From Verrucomicrobiota bacterium (GTDB lineage Bacteria > Verrucomicrobiota > Kiritimatiellia > CAIKKV01 > CAITUY01): a stretch of DNA of 38,341 bases. Within the stretch, counting starts at the first letter, position 1. Every line of letters starts with the position of its first letter. The notes beneath the pieces were generated by a model. The model ran no database searches and had not been told where the DNA came from. It worked only from the letters and a program-made list of their open reading frames with translations. The stretch covers positions 1 through 38,341 of the forward strand of contig JAABPW010000339.1 in the NCBI GenBank assembly GCA_011391785.1, read 5' to 3'. The position numbers were made by a program, and so were the translations under genes. Shown here one piece after another: positions 863 through 14,965 of the stretch.

Positions 863-2179
863 GTGACAAGTCTTGAAACAGCATGGGTGCTGGAGGCGGT
901 ATCGCGCTGGTTGCGTGCACCGTCCGAGCTGCTTGCCTGCCCTGATTCTCTGGATCCGGATCGGCTCGGGACGATTTTGGAGCAGAACAGGCTGCTTCCC
1001 CTGTTCCAGTCCATGTACTTATGCCTTCCCCAAGGGGAGGCGTGGATCCGATCCCGTGAACGTCTCGAATCCGTATACCAGAATAGCCTGTTGCAGGGGC
1101 TCCGGCAGCTCAAGTCCGGGCAGACACTCATGGAGACACTGGCAAGGGCGGGGATCGGAAGCCGTGCGGTCCGGGGCCCTTTCTTTGCTGAGGATGTCTA
1201 TGGGGATTCGGCACTCCGGCTCAGCTCGGATATCGATATCCTCGTTTCTCTGCAGGATCGGCGGCGTGCATGGAAAGTTTGCCAGGCGGCTGGGTATCGG
1301 TCCCTTGAGTGGGAGAGTCCCCTGTGGCCCCTTGACCGGCACCGCATCCATTGGCGGCTCCAGCGCGAGGGGGATCCGGTTGTGTGCGAGCTCCACTGGG
1401 CCGTTGAACCGGTATATGGAGCCATGACGCTGGACTATGAAGCTCTGGTGCGTGATTCGACGCCTACGCAGCAATTTCTCTCTCTTTGTCTGCATGCCGG
1501 GGAGCATATTCTCGAGCGGCTCGGCGGGACGGTTCGACGTTGCTCACCGCAGGCGGTTCGACGTTGCTCACCGCAGGCGCCTAGTCCTACTCCGGAAGAG
1601 GCGATGGAGCAGGGGATGCTTTTCCGCTGGCTTGATGTGGCCATGTTCCTGCGTAAATATGGTGATGTCCTCGATTGGGATTGTATGGACAGGCAGGCTC
1701 GGGATCGTCGGGTCAGTTCAAGTCTGGTGCTATGCCTCAAGGGGGTGAGGGACTGGTTCGGGCTATCGCTTCCCGGCGAAGTCGATTTGTTGCTGCTGAA
1801 GTGGGAGGAGTCAGCCTTACGGCAAAGGTCTCTCGGGTTGCGTCGTCGTCTTGAGGTGTGGTGGGAAGGGCGATTTACACCTGGAGGACTTCAGACATCC
1901 TTGCCTGATGTCTTGTATTTTCTCTCTCCCCATGCTGCCTTCTTTGCCCCGTCCAGTGGTATCACCTTGATGCTTCGAAGGGTAAGACACAGCATTAAGG
2001 CCTTTGCGGTGTTGTCCCTGGAGCTGATGTCCTACGCCTGTTTTGCGTCCATCACCGCCATCAGGAAGATCGCCGCGACGGAGCGTGCCTCCCACATTGA
2101 GCGAAGCACTTCTTTAAATGTGGGCGGCGCGCTCCGTCGCGGCGATCTCTCACAAGGTGATGCCGGAGGTCATTTATGA
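863..2179 (+). CDS. Nucleotidyltransferase family protein (PF14907-like)
   Basis: GTG start 9 nt after the previous stop; LRLSSDIDILVSL (DxD) and HWRLQREGDPVVCELHWAVEP pattern typical of PF14907 proteins found near RiPP/HprK-like genes. Confidence 0.75.
   Translation: MTSLETAWVLEAVSRWLRAPSELLACPDSLDPDRLGTILEQNRLLPLFQSMYLCLPQGEAWIRSRERLESVYQNSLLQGLRQLKSGQTLMETLARAGIGSRAVRGPFFAEDVYGDSALRLSSDIDILVSLQDRRRAWKVCQAAGYRSLEWESPLWPLDRHRIHWRLQREGDPVVCELHWAVEPVYGAMTLDYEALVRDSTPTQQFLSLCLHAGEHILERLGGTVRRCSPQAVRRCSPQAPSPTPEEAMEQGMLFRWLDVAMFLRKYGDVLDWDCMDRQARDRRVSSSLVLCLKGVRDWFGLSLPGEVDLLLLKWEESALRQRSLGLRRRLEVWWEGRFTPGGLQTSLPDVLYFLSPHAAFFAPSSGITLMLRRVRHSIKAFAVLSLELMSYACFASITAIRKIAATERASHIERSTSLNVGGALRRGDLSQGDAGGHL
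1531..1578 (+). repeat. Two perfect tandem copies of a 24-bp unit (ggttcgacgttgctcaccgcaggc), in-frame in the nucleotidyltransferase gene
   Basis: Direct reading: 1531-1554 = 1555-1578; encodes VRRCSPQA-VRRCSPQA. Confidence 0.95.
2067..2148. repeat. REPIN/BIME-like inverted repeat: two head-to-head 32-nt units flanking an 18-nt loop
   Basis: 2117-2148 aatgtgggcggcgcgctccgtcgcggcgatct versus reverse complement of 2067-2098 aatgtgggaggcacgctccgtcgcggcgatct; 30/32 identical, outer 19 bp perfect. Confidence 0.85.
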
Positions 2180-2976
2180 AGCCTTATGCCATGCTCTCTC
2201 TTGTCGTTCTTGCCCTCTCCGCCTCCGCCCATGAGTTCAATGACGATTATGGCGATACTGCCGCTATTAGCCAGCCAGTAACCATGGGGTCGAATGTGTT
2301 GGGGCGAATTGAGATTGATGTGGACGAGGACTGGTTTTCATTCCAATCATCCTATTCCACCAACAAGGAAATTATCGTCACTGTGGCAACCGGAACTTTG
2401 TGGAACAGCACAGCGGGGCTGTCGGCTCCGGACGGGGTCATGACGCTCGTCGGTACCGATTCGGTGGTGTCCGTCACATCCCGTGTGTCATGGATCCATA
2501 TCGGTCCGCCAGTAACTTATTTTGTCCGAGTTGCGGGGTTTGCCAGTTTTACAACGGGAACTTATACGATCGCGGTGAATGAACTGCCATTTCAGGATGA
2601 CGATCATGACGGAATGGCGGATGCCTGGGAAATTGCCTGTTTTGGAAATACCAACCAACCTGCTTCGGGAGTCTCCGGGGACTATGATCAGGATGGGAGT
2701 TTCAATATTGATGAGTTTCGGGCGGGCACCCAGCCAACCAATGAATACTCGCGGCTTCGTGTAACCGGGCTCAGTGCCACAAACGGGCCTTCTTCCGTGT
2801 CATGGGCTGCGGAGCCCTATCGCTTTTATGATGTCGAAGTCTCCACTAACTTGATGGTTGGCGGGTGGGATTACCTCGGTACGGTCACTAATCTCAATTC
2901 GCTGGGAACGCTACGCTATGACGACCCGACCGTTCCCGTGTCGCCAATCCGTTTCTATCGCGTGCGATGTTTGTAG
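2176..2976 (+). CDS. Secreted protein with signal peptide and Ca-binding-type (thrombospondin-3/dockerin-like) repeat
   Basis: MKPYAMLSLVVLALSASAHE signal peptide; DDDHDGMADAWE and GDYDQDGSFNIDEF motifs; ATGA overlap with the upstream gene. Confidence 0.75.
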   Translation: MKPYAMLSLVVLALSASAHEFNDDYGDTAAISQPVTMGSNVLGRIEIDVDEDWFSFQSSYSTNKEIIVTVATGTLWNSTAGLSAPDGVMTLVGTDSVVSVTSRVSWIHIGPPVTYFVRVAGFASFTTGTYTIAVNELPFQDDDHDGMADAWEIACFGNTNQPASGVSGDYDQDGSFNIDEFRAGTQPTNEYSRLRVTGLSATNGPSSVSWAAEPYRFYDVEVSTNLMVGGWDYLGTVTNLNSLGTLRYDDPTVPVSPIRFYRVRCL

Positions 2977-2978
2977 TC

Positions 2979-3440
2979 ATGATTACGAATGACGATATTC
3001 TTGACCTTCTGTCCTCTGCCATCCAGTCCGGTGACGGTGTCCGCCTCGCCGTTTCCGGGCGCAGCATGGGGCCTGCCTATGCCGCGGTGTCCGAGATCCA
3101 GGTCACCCCGTGTGAACCCGCTTCAATCACGCTCGGACGACTGGTTGTTTTTCAGCGTGACGGTCGCTGGGTTGTTCATCGCGTTATGAGGCGGAGGCGA
3201 GGGCTGGATGGCACCGTGTATCTCACCAAGGGCGATGGACTTGCCCGGCTGGACCTGCCTGCGGTGAAGTCATCGGACATCAAGGGAGTGGTTTCCAGCT
3301 TGGGATTGAAGGACGGATCCCGCGTTGATCTCCTGTCTTTCCTGTCGCGTGTCCAGTCCGTCTGGCTCGTCATCCGCTACTGGATCGGTCGGGTCATATT
3401 ACCGACCGGCAGAGCTCCAGAGCCCGCGCATCAGGAGTGA
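2979..3440 (+). CDS. S26 (SipW/Sec11-like) signal-peptidase-family protein
   Basis: SGRSMGP (Ser), VVHRV (His in place of the bacterial general-base Lys), YLTKGDGL. ATG 2979 preferred over the track start 2967, which overlaps the upstream stop. Confidence 0.7.
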   Translation: MITNDDILDLLSSAIQSGDGVRLAVSGRSMGPAYAAVSEIQVTPCEPASITLGRLVVFQRDGRWVVHRVMRRRRGLDGTVYLTKGDGLARLDLPAVKSSDIKGVVSSLGLKDGSRVDLLSFLSRVQSVWLVIRYWIGRVILPTGRAPEPAHQE

Positions 3441-4266
3441 AGTCCAGCCCGTAGGCCGGAACACCCTCAAGAATGGCGTGGCAAGACTCCAGAGTTCGGG
3501 CAGGGCCGCCGGGCATGAACACCGGAATGAAGGACGTGGTGAGCATTTTAGGCAGGCTCTCCGCCAAGGGTAGTGGGTGAAGGCGGTTCGAGGAGGCCTG
3601 ATTCAGGAAGAATATTCCCGCCAGAGGACCAGTTCCCGGGTTAACCTGGTTTTCTTCTCCGTGCCAGGGGCTGGCACCGGCTATTGCCTTGCCGTTCTTG
3701 CAGTGGATCAGGTTACGCTCATCGTTCAGGATGGTGGCCCCGTGCATCCGCCAGAGGCGGGCGAGGGTGGTTTTTCCGGCACCCGACATTCCGGCAAAGA
3801 TCAGGACCTTGCCATCTACCAGAATGCTGCTGGAATGCATCATGACGCCGCCGAGGTGGCATATCCGTCCCAGGACAACGGCCCGGTCCTGGGGATGGTA
3901 GAGGGGGCGGAGAACGGTTGTGCCGAACTGGGGTTCGGGAATCAACAACTCCCCGGTGGAAAAATCCGGCGCCATCCGGGCTGCCTGACGCCAGCCCCCG
4001 GACTGGATGTCAAAGATGTCGATCTCCAGTCGATTCTCATCATATAGACGAGTACGCCAGATTCCGTTGTCCCAGAATATTGATTCAGTGTCGCAAGGAC
4101 TGATGGCGTTTGAGACAAGTCTGGGTTGATAAACCGCATCGGGTATGAGGGCTGATGCGGGGATGATGAAAGGGTCGTATTCAGCGGGAGGGATAAGTGG
4201 GAGTGTGCTAAATGGCTGGGTGACGCGGAAAATGATTTCGGCCAATGAAAAATCCAAGTGAGCCAC
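3394..4266 (-). CDS. HprK-like (HPr kinase/phosphorylase-related) peptide kinase
   Basis: P-loop AGMSGAGKTTLARLWRMHGATILNDERNLI; GTG start 9 nt after the peptide ORF stop. Confidence 0.75.
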   Translation of the reverse strand: MAHLDFSLAEIIFRVTQPFSTLPLIPPAEYDPFIIPASALIPDAVYQPRLVSNAISPCDTESIFWDNGIWRTRLYDENRLEIDIFDIQSGGWRQAARMAPDFSTGELLIPEPQFGTTVLRPLYHPQDRAVVLGRICHLGGVMMHSSSILVDGKVLIFAGMSGAGKTTLARLWRMHGATILNDERNLIHCKNGKAIAGASPWHGEENQVNPGTGPLAGIFFLNQASSNRLHPLPLAESLPKMLTTSFIPVFMPGGPARTLESCHAILEGVPAYGLDFTPDARALELCRSVI

Positions 4267-4275
4267 CGGTAATCG

Positions 4276-4455
4276 TTAGGACGGATCAAAAGAGGATGCA
4301 GGATCCATAAACGGCAAAAGCGTGCAACACCCGTTTGTGATGGCTCCCTCAATCCGGGTCTGCTTGCTACAACTGGCGAAAAGGACAAGATTCTTGTCCT
4401 CGAATTTAACCTCGGTAATCGAAGGTGGAATATAAGGTTTCTTTTCGCTCATCAT
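4276..4455 (-). CDS. Candidate RiPP precursor peptide (58-59 aa)
   Basis: MMSEKKPYIPPSITEVKFEDKNLVLFASCSKQTRIEGAITNGCCTLLPFMDPASSFDPS. Small Cys-containing ORF between rSAM and kinase genes; YxxPxI leader-like motif; AGGGA upstream of ATG 4455/4452 (track start at 4461 is TTG). Confidence 0.75.
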   Translation of the reverse strand: MMSEKKPYIPPSITEVKFEDKNLVLFASCSKQTRIEGAITNGCCTLLPFMDPASSFDPS

Positions 4456-4512: not shown

Positions 4513-5565
4513 TCAGGCCCTTTTTTCCTCTTCCACGAGCCGGCAGAAGAAAGGCGGGGCGCCGGAAAGGGTGCCGGTCTCGAGGAGTGAATAGGCCACG
4601 CAGGATTGGCAACGGCTACGATCCTCGCAGGTGTCGCAGGCCCCCCCTGGGGCTGGGCGGTTGCGCAATTCGGTGATATGGGCCTGCCATGCCGCCAACG
4701 TGGGTTTGCTAGTCATATCGAACGGATCCCGGCGCCAAGACATGCAGGGATGCGCCTGATGGCGGGAATCCACATGAACGGTTAGAAGTCCTGCTCCGCA
4801 CTCAAAAAGGTGCTGGCGGCGGGGTGTCGAGGTCATGTCGCTAGTTTCTCCCGCCAGGCGTTCCCTGTCGCGCTGGCGGAATCGGGCGATCGCGGCAGGG
4901 TCGAGGCGCTCAGTGAGGGGGGATGCATCCCCGTCGAGGCACGGATGGACGATGGCGTCGTACCGGAAGTCGCACCCCAGCCCGAGGGCCCATTCCCGAA
5001 TGGCCTCGATTTCATGGGCATTGGTCCGCAGGACCATGGACTTCAGGCGGAGCAATATCCCGCGCCTGAGCAGGCCGTCTACAGCACTCCGGAATCGCCG
5101 GTATGAACCGGGTATTCCTGTGACAGCCTCGTAGGTGGCCTCCGTATGTCCATAGGCGGTGAGTTCAATCCGCCGTGGCGGGTGATTGGCGAGAAAGGCC
5201 ATGAGGTCCTCATCCAGGAGCGTCCCGTTCGAGAACAGTGTCAGGAAAAACCCGTTGCGTTTCGCCGCCAGATAGATAGGCTTGAAGTCCTTGCGGGCGA
5301 AGGGGTCGCCGCCAGTCAGGACAAGGAAGAGGACACCGAAATCACGCAGGGTATCAAGGACCTGGATAACCTCGGAGGTTGTCCGGTCCTGCCGGTTCAC
5401 TTCTTCATAGCGGAGAAAGCAATGGCGGCATTCGAGGTTGCAGGAGGAGGTCAAGTCCAGGGACGCGGAGACAGGGAATGCGGGGGGGGATTCCTGTTGT
5501 GCCAGCAGGTCCTGCGCGAATGCGCCAGATGTGATCTGGCCGTCATGGCATTCGGATCCCGGCAT
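4513..5565 (-). CDS. Radical SAM / SPASM-domain peptide-modifying enzyme
   Basis: CNLECRHC (CxxxCxxC), LTGGDPFARKDF, C-terminal SPASM-like cysteines (FECGAG...HPCMSW...CDTCEDRSRCQSC...FFC). ATG at 5565 with GGAG upstream; the track start at 5751 overlaps the PqqD-like gene. Confidence 0.9.
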   Translation of the reverse strand: MPGSECHDGQITSGAFAQDLLAQQESPPAFPVSASLDLTSSCNLECRHCFLRYEEVNRQDRTTSEVIQVLDTLRDFGVLFLVLTGGDPFARKDFKPIYLAAKRNGFFLTLFSNGTLLDEDLMAFLANHPPRRIELTAYGHTEATYEAVTGIPGSYRRFRSAVDGLLRRGILLRLKSMVLRTNAHEIEAIREWALGLGCDFRYDAIVHPCLDGDASPLTERLDPAAIARFRQRDRERLAGETSDMTSTPRRQHLFECGAGLLTVHVDSRHQAHPCMSWRRDPFDMTSKPTLAAWQAHITELRNRPAPGGACDTCEDRSRCQSCVAYSLLETGTLSGAPPFFCRLVEEEKRA

Positions 5566-5569
5566 GGTG

Positions 5570-5848
5570 TCACTCCTGTATGGCGCCAATAGCCGTAAGC
5601 CGCTCAAGGACCCGCTGGACATCGCCCCGGGCGGTTGCCTCGCTGACGTCGTATTGTGCGACCAGCCTGGCAACCAGTTCGTCTTCGGTAATGCCCGGGG
5701 AAATCTGGCGCCAGATGAACCCGGACGTTTCGTTGAGCGTGTAGAGGGCATCGAGTCGTGCCGGACCGGTTTTCATCGGAACCAGAATCAGGTTGTCCCG
5801 GACCGTGCGTTCCACCACGTCCTTGCTTTTTATAAACTGTCGTGCCAT
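5570..5848 (-). CDS. PqqD-family RiPP recognition element protein
   Basis: LILVPMKTGPARLDALYTLNETSGFIWRQISPGITEDELVARLVAQYDVSEATARGDVQRVLERL: PqqD pattern (LNETSGFIW, V..F/VL..L). Confidence 0.85.
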   Translation of the reverse strand: MARQFIKSKDVVERTVRDNLILVPMKTGPARLDALYTLNETSGFIWRQISPGITEDELVARLVAQYDVSEATARGDVQRVLERLTAIGAIQE

Positions 5849-6685: not shown

Positions 6686-7909
6686 CTATTCCCGCCGCAA
6701 ACTCTCGATCGGATTGAGGCGGGCGGCGCGCCAGGCCGGATAAAAGCCGAAGAAGATGCCTACCCCGGCGGAAAAGGTGAGGGCGAGCAGGATGGCGCTG
6801 GCGGAAATCATCACCGGCCAGTGGTTTACCTTGGCCACGATGTTGGCGACGCTGATTCCCAGGCCAATTCCGATGATTCCCCCGGCTCCGGACAGGGCCA
6901 CGGCCTCGGCCAGGAATTGCATCAGGATGTCCCTGCGCCGGGCCCCGACCGCCAGCCTTAACCCGATCTCCCGCGTCCGCTCACTGACGGCCACCAGCAT
7001 GATGTTCATAATGCCGATACCGCCCACGGCCAGTGAAATGGAGGCGATGATCGTCAGTAGCATGGTCATCAGGCTCGATACCTGAGTGATCATCTGGGTC
7101 ACTTCGGTCATGTCGGTGATGGTGAAGTCATCATCGGTTGTCTGGTTAAGACGGTGCCGTTGGCGCAGGATCTTCGAAATTTCATCTTTTGCCGCAGGGA
7201 GGGCATCCATGGAAACCAGGCTCATCATGAGCTGGTTGACATTGTTGAACGGCGAATTCTGGAGGACGCGCCGGACGGTGGTCCAGGGGGCGATAATGGT
7301 GTCGTCCTGATCCTGCCCCCACGCCGCGCTTCCTTTCTTCGTCATGACGCCGACCACCCGGAAAGGCATGTTCTTGATGCGGATCGTCTTGTTCAGGGGA
7401 TCCTCGCCTTGGAATAGATTCTCGGCAACGGTTTGTCCCAGTACGCAGACCCGTGCTGCGCTGCGCAAATCCGAATCGGTGAAGAAGGAGCCTGAGGCCA
7501 CATCCCAGCTCCGGACTTCCTGGTACTGGACATTGACTCCCTGTACGGAAGTCGCCCAGTCATTCTCGCGGTAGATGCATTGCCCGCCCGCGCGGACCAT
7601 AGGACTCATGGCCTGAACCATCGGGCATTCGCGCAGGATCGCTTCGCCATCCTCGGCGGTCAAGGTCTGCTGGGTGCCGGCTCCGCCGTGGAAACCGCCG
7701 GTTCTCTGGCTGCCCGGGAAAATCATCAGGAGGTTGTTGCCCATGCTGCTGATCTGGTTTCGCATGGTCACGGAGGCACCTTGCCCAACGGCCACCACGG
7801 CGATCACGGCGGCAATGCCGATGATGATTCCCAGGGCGGTCAACAGGGAGCGGGTTTTATTCCGGACCAGGGCCCGCATGGCGATGCGAATAGTGATAAG
7901 GCCGGTCAT
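6686..7909 (-). CDS. MacB-type ABC transporter permease (FtsX/MacB_PCD)
   Basis: N-terminal TM then ALGIIIGIAAVIAVVAVGQGA; C-terminal SISLAVGGIGIMNIMLVAVSERTREIGLRLAVGARRRDI. Confidence 0.93.
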   Translation of the reverse strand: MTGLITIRIAMRALVRNKTRSLLTALGIIIGIAAVIAVVAVGQGASVTMRNQISSMGNNLLMIFPGSQRTGGFHGGAGTQQTLTAEDGEAILRECPMVQAMSPMVRAGGQCIYRENDWATSVQGVNVQYQEVRSWDVASGSFFTDSDLRSAARVCVLGQTVAENLFQGEDPLNKTIRIKNMPFRVVGVMTKKGSAAWGQDQDDTIIAPWTTVRRVLQNSPFNNVNQLMMSLVSMDALPAAKDEISKILRQRHRLNQTTDDDFTITDMTEVTQMITQVSSLMTMLLTIIASISLAVGGIGIMNIMLVAVSERTREIGLRLAVGARRRDILMQFLAEAVALSGAGGIIGIGLGISVANIVAKVNHWPVMISASAILLALTFSAGVGIFFGFYPAWRAARLNPIESLRRE

Positions 7910-8571
7910 ACGATCTGCCCGTCCTTCATTTGGATCACCCGTTTGGCATAGCGGGCGATGTCCGGCTCGTGGGTGACCATGACGATGGTGATGCCCTCGC
8001 GGTTCAGTTCCTGGAACAGGGCCATGATGTCATCGGCGGAACGGCTATCGAGGTTTCCTGTAGGTTCGTCCGCCAGGATGAGTGGTGGCTGGTTGACCAG
8101 TGCCCGGGCGATGGCGACCCGCTGCTGCTGGCCGCCTGAGAGCTGGCCCGGATGGTGGCCCAGCCGGTTTTCGAGACCGACCCGGGTCAGGAGTGAGCGC
8201 GCCCGTTCCTGGCGTTCGGCTGCACTGATTTTGGGGCCGTAGTAAAGCGGGAGCTCCACGTTTTCCAGGGCGCTGGTGCGTGCCAGGAGGTTGAAGTTCT
8301 GGAAGACAAATCCGATTTTCTGATTACGGATGCGGGCCAGGTCATCGCTGCTTAACCGGCTTACTTCCTTGTCGTCCAGCAGGTAGGTTCCCGAGTCCGG
8401 GCGATCCAGGCAGCCGAGCAGGTTCAGCAACGTACTCTTGCCGGAGCCGGAATGCCCCATGATGGCGACGAATTCCCCCGTGTCGATGGTGGCGGTAACC
8501 GAACGGAGTGCGGGAACGTCCACCTCCTCCATGTGGTACACCTTCGAGATTTCTTTGAGTGAGATAAGCAT
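7906..8571 (-). CDS. MacB/LolD-type ABC transporter ATP-binding protein
   Basis: Walker [13 protein letters not shown], signature [15 protein letters not shown], Walker [13 protein letters not shown]; 4-nt overlap with the permease gene. Confidence 0.95.
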
Positions 8572-8617
8572 ATACCAGTTTCTCGCCTGAACCCCGAATC
8601 CTGATTCCTGATCCCTT

Positions 8618-9865
8618 TTACCGTGTTGCCCGCCGCCCGGCCCTTGGCATCTGGGGAGTAAAGGGATTGACGGTCTTTTCGTTGTTGGACTTTACCTGAA
8701 TGCCGGTGATGATCAGTTGTCCCTCGGCCAGGGAGTGGGAACCCTTGATTTCCGTGAAGGCGCCGTCGGTGATGCCCAGCGACACTGAAGCGGGATGAAT
8801 CCGGCCGGTTTCCGGGCTCTGCACCCAGATGTCATGTGTCCGGTCAGCGCGGTCGGATTTGCCTTTGCCTTTGCCTTTGGCTGGAGTCGCATCCTCGGCA
8901 TCATTGCTCTCCTCGGGCTTGAATCGCAAGGCCGCATTCGGCACCTTGAAGACATTCGCATGGCGGGCTACCTCGCAGATGATGTCGGCCGTCATGCCCG
9001 GGAACAGCTTAAGGTCCGGATTGACCGCCTCGATAATGACGGGATAGGTGACGACATTCTGGACGGTGCTGGCGGCCATGCGGACCTGGGTCACCGTTCC
9101 CGTGAAGACTTGCTCATTGTAGGCGTCCACCGTGAAGGTCACCTGCTGTCCTGCCGCCACAGTGCCGATATCAGCCTCCGGGATGCTGGCTTCCACCTGG
9201 ATTTTCTGGAGATCGGTGGCGATGGAGAAAAGGACCTGGGCGTTGAAGCTGGCAACCACCGTCTGGCCTTCACTGACATTGCGGTTGATGACGACCCCGT
9301 CCACGGGGGAGCTGATGGTGGTGTAGCCGAGATTGGCCTGTGACAGCTGCAATGCCGCTTTGGCCTGCGCCACGGCCGCCTGAACCACCTTGAGTTGGGC
9401 GGTAAGGGTGTCGCGCGTTGCCTGGGCCGAATCCAGATCGGATTGAGACAACATTTCCCGCGCGGCCAGGGTTTTCGTGCGCTCCAGTTCCTTTTCCGCC
9501 TGGGTCAATTTCGCCTGGGTCTGCTCAACATTCGCCTGACTCTGGATGAGGTTGGCCTGGTCCTGCGCGAGGCGTGCCTGATAAGTCGTAGGATCGATCT
9601 GGGCCACGAGATCGCCTGCCTTCACCCGGCTGTTGAAGTCAACATAGAGTTTCAGGATGGGGCCGTTGACCTGGGTGCCCACTTGGACCAGCTTGATGGG
9701 CTGGATGATGCCGGTGGCCCGGACGGTCTGGGCCACATCACCCCGCTCGAGCGGGACGGTCCGGTAATTGGGAGCCCCGTTATTCCCGGAGGCCCAGGCC
9801 CGGTAAGCGAAAAACGCCGCAATGCCTGCCGCCAGCAGGACAAGACTGATGATCCATCGTTTCAT
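8618..9865 (-). CDS. MacA-like periplasmic adaptor (HlyD/RND adaptor family)
   Basis: Single N-terminal TM, VRATGIIQPIKLVQVGTQVNGPI, coiled-coil hairpin, SPVDGVVINRNVSEGQTV, C-terminal beta domains. Confidence 0.92.
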   Translation of the reverse strand: MKRWIISLVLLAAGIAAFFAYRAWASGNNGAPNYRTVPLERGDVAQTVRATGIIQPIKLVQVGTQVNGPILKLYVDFNSRVKAGDLVAQIDPTTYQARLAQDQANLIQSQANVEQTQAKLTQAEKELERTKTLAAREMLSQSDLDSAQATRDTLTAQLKVVQAAVAQAKAALQLSQANLGYTTISSPVDGVVINRNVSEGQTVVASFNAQVLFSIATDLQKIQVEASIPEADIGTVAAGQQVTFTVDAYNEQVFTGTVTQVRMAASTVQNVVTYPVIIEAVNPDLKLFPGMTADIICEVARHANVFKVPNAALRFKPEESNDAEDATPAKGKGKGKSDRADRTHDIWVQSPETGRIHPASVSLGITDGAFTEIKGSHSLAEGQLIITGIQVKSNNEKTVNPFTPQMPRAGRRATR

Positions 9866-9867
9866 GG

Positions 9868-11262
9868 TTATTCCTCTCCCGCGGCGTGTTTCAACTGTGC
9901 GATTGCCGCCTCATAGTCGAATTTCGCCTTAACCTGTTCCGCCCGGGCACTGGTCAGCGCCACCTGGGCATCCGTGACCTCCACGGCGGAGGCGGCCCCG
10001 AGGCGATACCGTTCACTGACTAGATCCAGGGTTTCCGTCGCCTGCCGCACGAGCAGGTCGGTGAGCGGCAGGCGTTGTTGTGCGCTATCCAGCTGGTTGA
10101 GCGCATTTTGAAGATCCTGGAAAATCTGCTGCTCCCGGTCCGTGATTCGTGCCCGGACACTCCTGAGGTTGGCGACCATTTCGCGAATGCGCCAGGACTG
10201 CCGGCGGCCAGTGAAAAGCTGGACCGAGGACTGCAGGGCGGCAGACAAGTTCCAGATCAGGGGGAGATGGCCTCCGCTGAGACCGTATTTGGCCTGGAGT
10301 CCCAGTTCCGGGTAAAGGGAGGCGATGGCCTCGTCCACGGCGGCGTTGGCGGCGCGTTCATTGGCCTGCAGGGCGCGCAGACCGGGGTGGTTCCGGCGGG
10401 CCCGGTTCATGAGTTCGGGTGCCGTGGCGGGCGTGAAGACGGAGTGAGTCCCGGGTTGCTGGGTGTAGCCAGGCTCCTCCGCCAGCCCTAGGGTCCGGTT
10501 CAGGGCGGCCCGGGCATCCGAGAGGCTGTTCTGGACCTTGATTAAATCCAGTTTGGCATTACCCAGGTCGACATCCGCCTTGGTCAGGTCATAGCGGGTC
10601 CGGCGGCCGACTTCCTGGAATGCCTTTACCTGGTCGAGGCGGACGGTGTATTGGCGAACCGCATCCCGGGCAACCTGGGACAGTTCCGATGCCTTGCCCA
10701 GGTTGTAGAAGGCGTTGCGCACCGCGAAGGCGACATCACTGCGGGTGGAACGGAGGCTTTCCGCCGCGGAAATCTGGCGGGCGTAGGCCTGGCGGACAAC
10801 CGCCGGGGTTTTACCGAAGTCATAGACGAGCACATTCAATCCCAGGGACCCGCTGAACGAATTGTCGGCGTGATAGCTTCCTGGCTGTCCCTCCGAATTT
10901 GCCGTCGAACGGCTTCCGCCTGCACTGGCGCTGAGTTGCGGCCAGTAGGCGGCCCTGGCCTGATACACCTGGGCGGTGGCGGCAGCCAGGGCCTGTTCGG
11001 CCTGGACAACGGAAGGGTGGTAGGTGAGGGCGATTTCCAGAGCCCGGTCGAGTTTCAGGACGGTGTTCGAGGATAGACCGACCTCATTGGCCAGGAGTAG
11101 TCGCTCTCCCGGGGGGGGGTGGTCGCCCTTCTGGATGCTCCGGGCCTCCCGGATGGTGGCGCACCCGGCGCCGAAGCACAAGCCTAAGGCCAGCATCACA
11201 ATGGCTGGAAAAACAGATGATGTCACGGTTCTCATAATACAGGTCATAAATAGTACACTCAT
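9868..11262 (-). CDS. TolC-family outer-membrane efflux lipoprotein
   Basis: Lipobox-like LCFGAGC; two OEP repeats (LDRALEIALTYHPSV..., LDLVSERYRLGAASAVEVTDAQVALTSAR). Confidence 0.9.
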   Translation of the reverse strand: MSVLFMTCIMRTVTSSVFPAIVMLALGLCFGAGCATIREARSIQKGDHPPPGERLLLANEVGLSSNTVLKLDRALEIALTYHPSVVQAEQALAAATAQVYQARAAYWPQLSASAGGSRSTANSEGQPGSYHADNSFSGSLGLNVLVYDFGKTPAVVRQAYARQISAAESLRSTRSDVAFAVRNAFYNLGKASELSQVARDAVRQYTVRLDQVKAFQEVGRRTRYDLTKADVDLGNAKLDLIKVQNSLSDARAALNRTLGLAEEPGYTQQPGTHSVFTPATAPELMNRARRNHPGLRALQANERAANAAVDEAIASLYPELGLQAKYGLSGGHLPLIWNLSAALQSSVQLFTGRRQSWRIREMVANLRSVRARITDREQQIFQDLQNALNQLDSAQQRLPLTDLLVRQATETLDLVSERYRLGAASAVEVTDAQVALTSARAEQVKAKFDYEAAIAQLKHAAGEE

Positions 11263-12947: not shown

Positions 12948-14807
12948 TTACTCCCCGCAATTTCCGGGATCCGTTTCCGGCATCAGCATGGCGTTGCTGA
13001 ACTCCATCTGGAATTCCGGCGCGAGCGACAGGTCAATGTGGCGGACTTTGCCGATGAGGCTGATGGCATAGTTCTTTTCCTGGGAGGACAGCAGGGCCCG
13101 CTTGGCGCCAAAAGACGAGGTGTTGCCCACGAACCGGATCCGGCTGCAGGGGATGGGGGGCAGCATTCCGATCCGGCGGGCATGGTTGCGGCGGATGAAG
13201 TTCCCGAAGCCGCCTGCCAGCAGGATTTCGCCAATATCGGCGGGATCGACCCCGGCCATGTTCAGCAGGATATTGATGCCTGCCCGGATGGCGGCACTGG
13301 CGAGTTGAAGCTCGCGCACATCGCGCTGGTAGAGGAGGATGGGGCTTCCGGTGGCCGACTTTGCGGCGGGCACGAGCAGGAAATGGGTTTCGCCCTTGTC
13401 TTCCACGAGCCGCTCCCGGAGTGCCGGTGCCAGATCCCGGGGCGCCTCGGCGGGGGGCAGGATGCGCCCCGTGGAATCCAGGATGCCCACCCTCAGCATT
13501 TCGGCGGCCACATCAATCAGGGCGGTTCCGCAAAGTCCGGCCGGCTTGGTATTGCCGATGACGTTCAGGCTGACATCGCCATTCAGGATAATCTTTTCGA
13601 TGGCGCCGCCGGTGGCGCGCATGCCATTGGTGATGCGCGCCCCCTCAAAGGCGGGACCTGCCGCCACGGAGGTGGCCAGCATCATGTCCCCGTGTTTCAG
13701 TACAATTTCCCCGTTCGTTCCGATATCCACCAGCAGGGTGGGCTGGGTGGCGCGGTCAAGCCGTGTGGCGACGATTCCCGCGGTGGTATCGCCCCCGACG
13801 AAGCCGCCGATCTGGGGGAAAACATAGACTTTCGCGCAGGGATGGACATGGAGCGCAAGATCCGAGGCGGAAAATTCCAGCGCCTCGCGGAAAGCGGGAA
13901 GGAACGGAATTTCTCCCAGGGCCGAGGGGTCGATGCCGCACAGGATCTGCTGCATGGTGGTATTGCCTGCGAAAACCACTTCATAAATAGACTGCCGGTT
14001 GACAGACGCCTTGCGCTCCAGTTCATCGATGATCCGGTTGATTCCGTCCAGAACCGAGGACTGGAGTTGCTGCAGGCCGCCTTTGCCTGTGCGGCACTTC
14101 TGGATCCGGGAGATGACGTCATCGCCGAAGGATGTCTGGGGATTTACCCGCGCGGCCACGGCGATGTCGGCGCCGGTCACGAGATTGACCAGCGTGCCGA
14201 CCAGGGTGGTGGTGCCGATATCGAAAGCGATGCCATAACAGGAGGCGGAGGTGTCGCCGGCTTCAACCGCAATGACTTCGTTATCCACCTGCACGGCGGT
14301 GATCATGTTGTTCGGAGCGCGTAGCAGGCCGGGCAGGGTGCGGATGGCAGCGATGCCAAGCGGGGCCGTAACGCCCGCAGCCCTCAACCGCTCAATGTCG
14401 GAGCCCGATTCCCCCGACGGGGCAGGTAGCGGGGGAATCACGGTTTTCCGTACCCGGGGATCGAGGTCCATGACGCCGCCGCTGTCGCTGGTGAGGATCT
14501 GCTGGTGTGTCTGGAACAGGGAGGAGTCCGGGATTTCAATGGTGAGTGGTCCCGTCACACGAGCCTGGCAGGCCAGGCGGAACCCTTCGGCAATGCGGGC
14601 TGCGCCCACTGTGGCGATCTCGTTGTCGGACGGCGCGCAGTTTCCGCCACGGATCCGCACGAGGCACTTGGAGCATTTGGATACCCCGCCGCAAGGGGTA
14701 TGGATAATAAAGCCGGCGCGGGCAGAAACCTCGAGAAGGGTGGTTCCCGGCAAGGCATGTACGGTGCGGCCGGATGGCTGGAAAACAATTTTGACTTCTT
14801 TTGGCAT
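12948..14807 (-). CDS. Ferredoxin-ASKHA protein, reductive activator of corrinoid proteins (RACE/RamA-like, DUF4445)
   Basis: 2Fe-2S motif CGGVSKCSKCLVRI...C; ASKHA motifs AFDIGTTTLVGTLV, LLVDIGTNGEIVL, ILLAGGFGNFI. ATG at 14807 with GAGGAG upstream. Confidence 0.88.
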   Translation of the reverse strand: MPKEVKIVFQPSGRTVHALPGTTLLEVSARAGFIIHTPCGGVSKCSKCLVRIRGGNCAPSDNEIATVGAARIAEGFRLACQARVTGPLTIEIPDSSLFQTHQQILTSDSGGVMDLDPRVRKTVIPPLPAPSGESGSDIERLRAAGVTAPLGIAAIRTLPGLLRAPNNMITAVQVDNEVIAVEAGDTSASCYGIAFDIGTTTLVGTLVNLVTGADIAVAARVNPQTSFGDDVISRIQKCRTGKGGLQQLQSSVLDGINRIIDELERKASVNRQSIYEVVFAGNTTMQQILCGIDPSALGEIPFLPAFREALEFSASDLALHVHPCAKVYVFPQIGGFVGGDTTAGIVATRLDRATQPTLLVDIGTNGEIVLKHGDMMLATSVAAGPAFEGARITNGMRATGGAIEKIILNGDVSLNVIGNTKPAGLCGTALIDVAAEMLRVGILDSTGRILPPAEAPRDLAPALRERLVEDKGETHFLLVPAAKSATGSPILLYQRDVRELQLASAAIRAGINILLNMAGVDPADIGEILLAGGFGNFIRRNHARRIGMLPPIPCSRIRFVGNTSSFGAKRALLSSQEKNYAISLIGKVRHIDLSLAPEFQMEFSNAMLMPETDPGNCGE

Positions 14808-14965
14808 CTTGAACACTCCTCAAAGAGTAAAAAGTACAGCAAAGGGATGAACCGTTCAAGGTCGAGGTTTTAAATCGAGGGGGCCGTTACAGGAGGGCGC
14901 CCGTGCCCCGTTGCAAAGTCGAATAACTTGTCAGAGGTGGGGAAGCGTGTTTATTATCTGCCCCC

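Follow-up and report, generated by a model that had tools for sequence, protein, structure and literature searches.

A radical SAM-linked precursor peptide with a conserved C-terminal serine beside an HprK-like kinase in Kiritimatiellia: a candidate doubly modified RiPP

The stretch analysed here (hereafter the window) comprises 38,341 nucleotides of a Verrucomicrobiota genome of the class Kiritimatiellia (assembly GCA_011391785.1, contig JAABPW010000339.1, positions 1 to 38,341). Its minus strand carries a four-gene cassette transcribed in the order PqqD-type RRE, radical SAM/SPASM enzyme, precursor peptide and HprK-like kinase (Table 1). Genes on the plus strand for a C25 peptidase, an NTP_transf_5 nucleotidyltransferase, a secreted-looking protein and a signal peptidase I (SpI)-like protein converge on the kinase gene, and the 3' ends of the SpI-like and kinase genes share 47 nt. 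A genus mate (genome G303, locus L087) has this cassette as well, converging in the same way.

Table 1. Cassette genes and neighbouring features in the window.
Feature	Position	Strand	Remarks
Precursor peptide, 59 aa	4276..4455	-	YxxP leader (YIPPSI), first core Cys, CC pair, C-terminal DPS before the stop
Codon of the terminal Ser (TCC) plus stop; putative phosphosite	4276..4281	-	Ser/Thr in 52/58 rSAM-linked homologs
HprK-like peptide kinase, 290 aa, GTG start	3394..4266	-	H144, P-loop GMSGAGKT (K165), D182-E183
Radical SAM/SPASM peptide maturase	4513..5565	-	Radical_SAM PF04055 E 6.6e-18; CNLECRHC; C-terminal SPASM-like Cys set
Discrete RRE, PqqD family, 92 aa	5570..5848	-	PF05402 E 8.1e-16
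Archaeal-type signal peptidase I-like protein, 157 aa, LppS-like leader peptidase candidate	2967..3440	+	TIGR02228 E 1.5e-10
NTP_transf_5 nucleotidyltransferase, LppN/PsmN-like candidate	863..2179	+	PF14907 E 1.9e-24
Peptidase family C25 (gingipain/PorU-like), truncated by contig edge	3..854	+	PF01364 E 8.6e-39
Secreted-looking protein without Pfam match	2176..2976	+	Present in a few relatives; 82% in genus mate

The longest open reading frame of the radical SAM gene begins at 5751, and an ATG at 5565 sits 4 nt past the PqqD stop; the best NCBIfam matches of its product were all under cut-off. The RRE protein is nearest to lasso B1-type chaperones (NF033530, E 1.1e-9, under cut-off), and the SpI-like protein scored 41.2 bits against TIGR02228 (cut-off 51.85) and carries the Ser/His/Asp motifs GRSMGP, VVHR and KGDGL. 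Upstream of the RRE gene and on the same strand lie genes for a MacB permease, an ATPase, a MacA-like and a TolC-like protein (6686-11262); this MacAB-TolC-type operon was dropped as a candidate dedicated exporter because it was not found near the genus-mate cassette. A RACo-type ASKHA protein (corrinoid-protein reactivator family), apparently unrelated, is also encoded near the cassette (12948-14816).

The initial annotation had called the kinase HprK-like from its letters, and family-level and structural comparisons agree. NCBIfam matches to HprK_rel_A, HprK_rel_B and ScmC were weak and all well under cut-off, placing the protein outside these named families, while a profile of 20 relatives matched L. 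casei HprK (E 2e-5) with the His, P-loop and DDR motif aligned. Foldseek searches with the AlphaFold model returned HPr kinases/phosphorylases as the best PDB matches; next came PEP carboxykinases, which are known to be structurally related. The C-terminal domain is thus modelled with the fold of an HPr kinase; the model is mostly confident from about residue 130, and no claim is made for the N-terminal half because residues 1-125 have pLDDT <50. A housekeeping role was ruled out, as the genome has a separate gene for a genuine HprK (C139, 182 bits). When inspected as a peptide HprK-like kinase, the protein has the catalytic His, the P-loop Lys and the first Asp (H144, K165 and D182, kept in nearly the whole family alignment), with Glu183 in place of the second Asp. 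Lasso kinases carry Asp-Asp here, whereas members of this family have either Asp or Glu behind D182; Glu is common and is shared by the window and the genus mate. The corresponding His, Lys and Asp-Asp of BsfK are important for its activity (PMC10368454).

Characterized HprK-like kinases act on RiPP precursors in two ways. PadeK, ThcoK, SyanK and PsmK phosphorylate lasso precursors at the C-terminal Ser (PMC9266682), whereas BsfK phosphorylates Ser3 of a lasso precursor (PMC10368454), and in the lppAKBSDN system of Paenibacillus alginolyticus, which yields the linear polyphosphorylated peptides (LPPs) described in 2026, deletions showed that LppK is needed for phosphorylation, with core Ser3 as the site, and LppS for leader removal (PMC13381572). 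With two known sites, C-terminal Ser and core Ser3, knowing the kinase is not enough to tell which residue is the target.

The precursor (minus strand, 4455-4276) translates as MMSEKKPYIPPSITEVKFEDKNLVLFASCSKQTRIEGAITNGCCTLLPFMDPASSFDPS, 59 residues ending SFDPS. The claim that it ends in Ser and is followed 9 nt later by the kinase gene was confirmed directly from the reading frames (4455-4276 and 4266-3394, the gap before the kinase GTG being 4267-4275). No family in Pfam or NCBIfam was matched by the precursor. Its ortholog in the genus mate aligns without gaps across all 59 residues, with YxPP, VKFED, NLV, SCSKQ, CC, LLP, PA and the final FDPS kept, and the last three sense codons differ by synonymous changes only (GAT CCG TCC in the window, GAC CCC TCT in the mate). 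The internal SS of the window precursor is AI in this ortholog, which weakens the pair as a phosphosite; the genus-mate comparison favours the terminal Ser as the putative site over the internal SS.

To extend this comparison, homologous kinases were collected; 43 of the 295 phylum genomes had them, as did 79 of 348 class genomes when the profile was used. We annotated 90 regions uniformly, together with five loci from outside the phylum; at least five exist there, recovered with one P-loop pattern, which indicates reach but not how many there are. Small YxxP reading frames adjoining the kinase were sampled as precursors with their last residue disregarded; start codons were set by hand, which leaves the C-terminus unaffected. 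This gave 58 rSAM-linked precursors, 56 from rSAM-bearing loci and two from genomes with the rSAM gene elsewhere. Dozens of genomes share the order of the reading frames, their frame and the C-terminal residue, with the precursor stop usually close to the kinase start, and the arrangement in the window is therefore more than chance.

The initial annotation had asked for precursor homologs to be aligned, naming a non-conserved C-terminal Ser as grounds for rejection; conservation is what was found, with Ser in 51 and Thr in 1 of the 58 rSAM-linked precursors. The remaining six end otherwise (L092 in GY, L104 in SA, L116 and L118 in PSL, L138 in AY and L052 in TG). Just before the last residue stands, in most cases, Gly (37) or Pro (9). 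Adding six looser candidates from rSAM loci (ending in D at L050, S at L140 and L145, F at L142 and L143, and G at L144) brings the S/T ends to 54/64 (84%). Clustering of the cores at 50% identity, last residue excluded, gave 40 clusters, 35 of which end mainly in S/T, and the terminal-Ser trait is scattered across many deep kinase clades. Ser makes up 7.1% of inner-core residues in the rSAM-linked precursors. One locus (L027) encodes two tandem precursors with near-identical leaders and different cores, both ending GS.

The rSAM-linked precursors share a second trait. In all 58, the first core Cys lies 18-22 residues past the leader Tyr, a spacing that is 20 or 21 in 51 precursors. This Cys usually precedes Lys, and 56 precursors have at least two; L116 and L118 have a single Cys and end PSL, lacking both a second Cys and a terminal Ser despite an rSAM and a kinase gene. 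By comparison, precursors of rSAM-less kinase loci showed neither a core Cys (0/13) nor a terminal S/T (0/13). Fisher tests gave p = 1.7e-14 for core Cys and 4.7e-10 for terminal S/T; relatedness is uncorrected, and since clustering removes it incompletely, these p-values are indicative only. Tracking of Cys with rSAM is the outcome expected of a Cys-modifying rSAM enzyme, and the rSAM enzyme probably modifies Cys. In two genomes the cassette is split (L031/L150 in G126 and L032/L149 in G038), with precursor and kinase apart from PqqD and rSAM; the distant rSAM there is 41% identical, has its own PqqD and has no precursor beside it.

Kinases in the rSAM-less class are catalytically intact too, so the presence of a kinase does not by itself predict a terminal Ser; that residue goes with the rSAM and not with the kinase, so these kinases must have another target. 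One rSAM-less sub-class suggests where it may lie. An internal GGNYVS motif occurs in 6/7 of its precursors, and its kinases form a supported clade of their own. Six of the loci (L023, L024, L048, L090, L091 and L132) encode Cys-free precursors with GGNYVS[PQ] and other terminal residues, and L126 has GGNYVDEP; most loci of this class have a transporter-sized ABC protein directly after the kinase. By analogy with Ser3 of LPP, the Ser of GGNYVS is a plausible alternative phosphosite, and this sister class looks like LPP proper in the phylum, with the motif Ser as its candidate phosphosite. A third class (L142, L143 and L144) has the kinase before PqqD and rSAM, a shared CDS[SG]W and ends in KTRF(G), and the Ser at core position 3 of these precursors recalls Ser3 of LPP.

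These classes, conserved in internal Ser but rare in the phylum, together with the action of LppK (PMC13381572) and BsfK (PMC10368454) on core Ser3, lend some weight to the idea that the window kinase also targets an internal Ser/Thr, either near the core N-terminus or among the PASS serines, the terminal Ser being kept for some other purpose, for instance substrate docking or recognition by a protease or exporter. Within the rSAM class itself, however, when cores are aligned on the first Cys, S/T reaches at most 31% in every other column, including those near the core start, against 90% at the C-terminus, so a Ser3 of the LPP or Bsf type is not conserved here; with the replacement of the window SS by AI in the genus mate, this makes an internal site unlikely. 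A kinase acting on the C-terminal Ser is the reading carried forward below.

The nearest characterized system to the window locus is LPP. Its parts are a precursor with a YxxP leader, a discrete RRE, an HprK-like kinase, an archaeal-type SpI, an NTP transferase and an MsbA-like exporter, and it was described from Bacillota (PMC13381572). The window matches it in the YxxP leader, the RRE (PF05402), the kinase, the SpI-like protein and the NTP transferase, and both lack a lasso cyclase; the MsbA-like exporter of the LPP core set was not found in the window, where only the MacAB-TolC-type operon is nearby. LPP therefore already provides an HprK-like kinase on a non-lasso RiPP. The two differ in that only the window has a radical SAM/SPASM enzyme and a Cys core, and in that its conserved Ser is C-terminal rather than core Ser3; the rSAM and the predicted kinase site at the C-terminal Ser are the new part beyond LPP.

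Lasso loci of the paeninodin type share with the window an HprK-like kinase, a conserved precursor C-terminal Ser, a discrete RRE and, in some loci, an NTP transferase, but the window has no macrolactam synthetase or B2 protease and has an rSAM and a Cys core instead. The initial annotation's description of a non-lasso, rSAM-modified peptide holds on both counts as far as gene content goes: a radical SAM/SPASM gene (PF04055) is in the locus, and a lasso reading was ruled out, since no lasso cyclase or B2 protease lies in the cassette and the PF13471 (one, marginal) and PF00733 matches of the genome are on other contigs. The Bsf system resembles the window in its diverged HprK-like kinase, discrete RRE and YxxP precursor and differs in its lasso precursor ending in Asp, its Ser3 site and the absence of rSAM (PMC10368454).

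PqqD, rSAM and an HprK-like protein had already been grouped in the SynChlorMet models of NCBIfam (ScmC/D/E/F), which resemble the window in a PqqD-like protein, a radical SAM/SPASM enzyme and a ScmC that weakly matches the window kinase family, although that cassette has two rSAM models. Membership was rejected on scores (kinase against ScmC 23.5 bits, cut-off 125; PqqD against ScmD 18.2, cut-off 100), as was membership of HPr-rel-A (HprK_rel_A 26.6 bits against 200; PqqD_rel_X 20.3 against 35). A literature search found no paper on the SynChlorMet cassette and no experimental description of an rSAM plus HprK RiPP, most subscription papers being outside its reach. Sacti- and ranthipeptides share an rSAM/SPASM enzyme and a Cys-containing core with the window, where the linkage type is only predicted; we know of no kinase in these rSAM/SPASM Cys-modified RiPPs. 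By the features compared, the locus is best read as an LPP- or paeninodin-like phosphorylation pathway with an added rSAM step, and it belongs to neither family.

We therefore propose, at a probability of about 0.72, that the product of the locus is a linear RiPP with two modifications. The PqqD-type RRE would bind the YxxPx[ILV] leader motif and present the precursor; the radical SAM/SPASM enzyme would act on the core at or through the first Cys, most likely forming a Cys-derived thioether cross-link; the kinase would place one or more phosphates on the C-terminal Ser; the SpI-like protein would cut off the leader; and the NTP transferase may decorate the phosphate further. We infer both reactions, their order and site, leader cleavage and decoration from gene content and sequence conservation, which support the initial interpretation of a kinase acting on the terminal Ser of a non-lasso, rSAM-modified peptide.

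Component counts depend on how fragmented the assemblies are and are given here for the 28 rSAM-class loci in which 4.5 kb or more flanks the kinase in each direction. PqqD was present in 25 and rSAM in 26, with C25 in 15; against the full pathway, the SpI-like and NTP-transferase genes occurred in 17/28 and 12/28 and in the window lie on the opposite strand to the cassette. The C25 peptidase is beside the cassette in 34/57 rSAM-class loci, often directly before the PqqD gene, and is possibly a dedicated processing protease or a partner of the product.

HPr kinases can double as phosphorylases, and an NTP_transf_5 gene is in the locus; both would fit a terminal Ser that is nucleotidylated, glycosylated or esterified by the NTP transferase or some other enzyme, with the HprK-like protein having a different activity or supplying an intermediate. 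PsmN does add hexoses in pseudomycoidin, but it does so on phosphoserine and requires earlier phosphorylation (PMC9266682), and the precursor typically adjoins the kinase, whereas NTP_transf_5 is found in under half of the well-flanked loci, so we regard this explanation as quite improbable. Least probable of all is a peptide-derived redox cofactor of the PQQ or mycofactocin style, with rSAM and PqqD forming the cofactor pathway and the kinase a regulator. MftC and PqqE are among the NCBIfam matches of the rSAM enzyme, all far under cut-off, but cofactor precursors are normally near-invariant and the cores here differ in length and sequence among genomes (40 clusters from 58). The tandem precursors at L027 also speak against a cofactor, as do the three different systems of the window genome: that of the window, one on C27 (rSAM, precursor ending GDGS) and one on C47 (no rSAM, ending IIE).

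Outside the group to which the window belongs, at least three genomes carry the same set, in Acidiferrales (L054), Thiolapillus (L053) and Anaerolineales (L052), with precursors ending KNS (and an SpI-like gene present), ISS and VTG, respectively. On balance, and with less assurance than for the pathway itself, we favour the view that these loci represent a distinct RiPP class, common in the bacterial class and with candidates in at least three other groups, defined by an rSAM-modified Cys core, a C-terminal Ser that is (poly)phosphorylated or capped with a phosphosugar, and signal-peptidase-like leader removal.

To our knowledge, phosphorylation of RiPPs is rare, the cases documented so far being lasso peptides and, from 2026, the linear LPPs. 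If the proposal is true, two unrelated chemistries, a radical SAM reaction and a terminal-Ser kinase, would be joined on one RRE-presented precursor across a large family. This family would offer dozens of natural substrates whose cores are strongly variable while the candidate phosphosite is fixed, and the rSAM-less sister class would provide a natural contrast for how such kinases choose between a terminal and an internal Ser.
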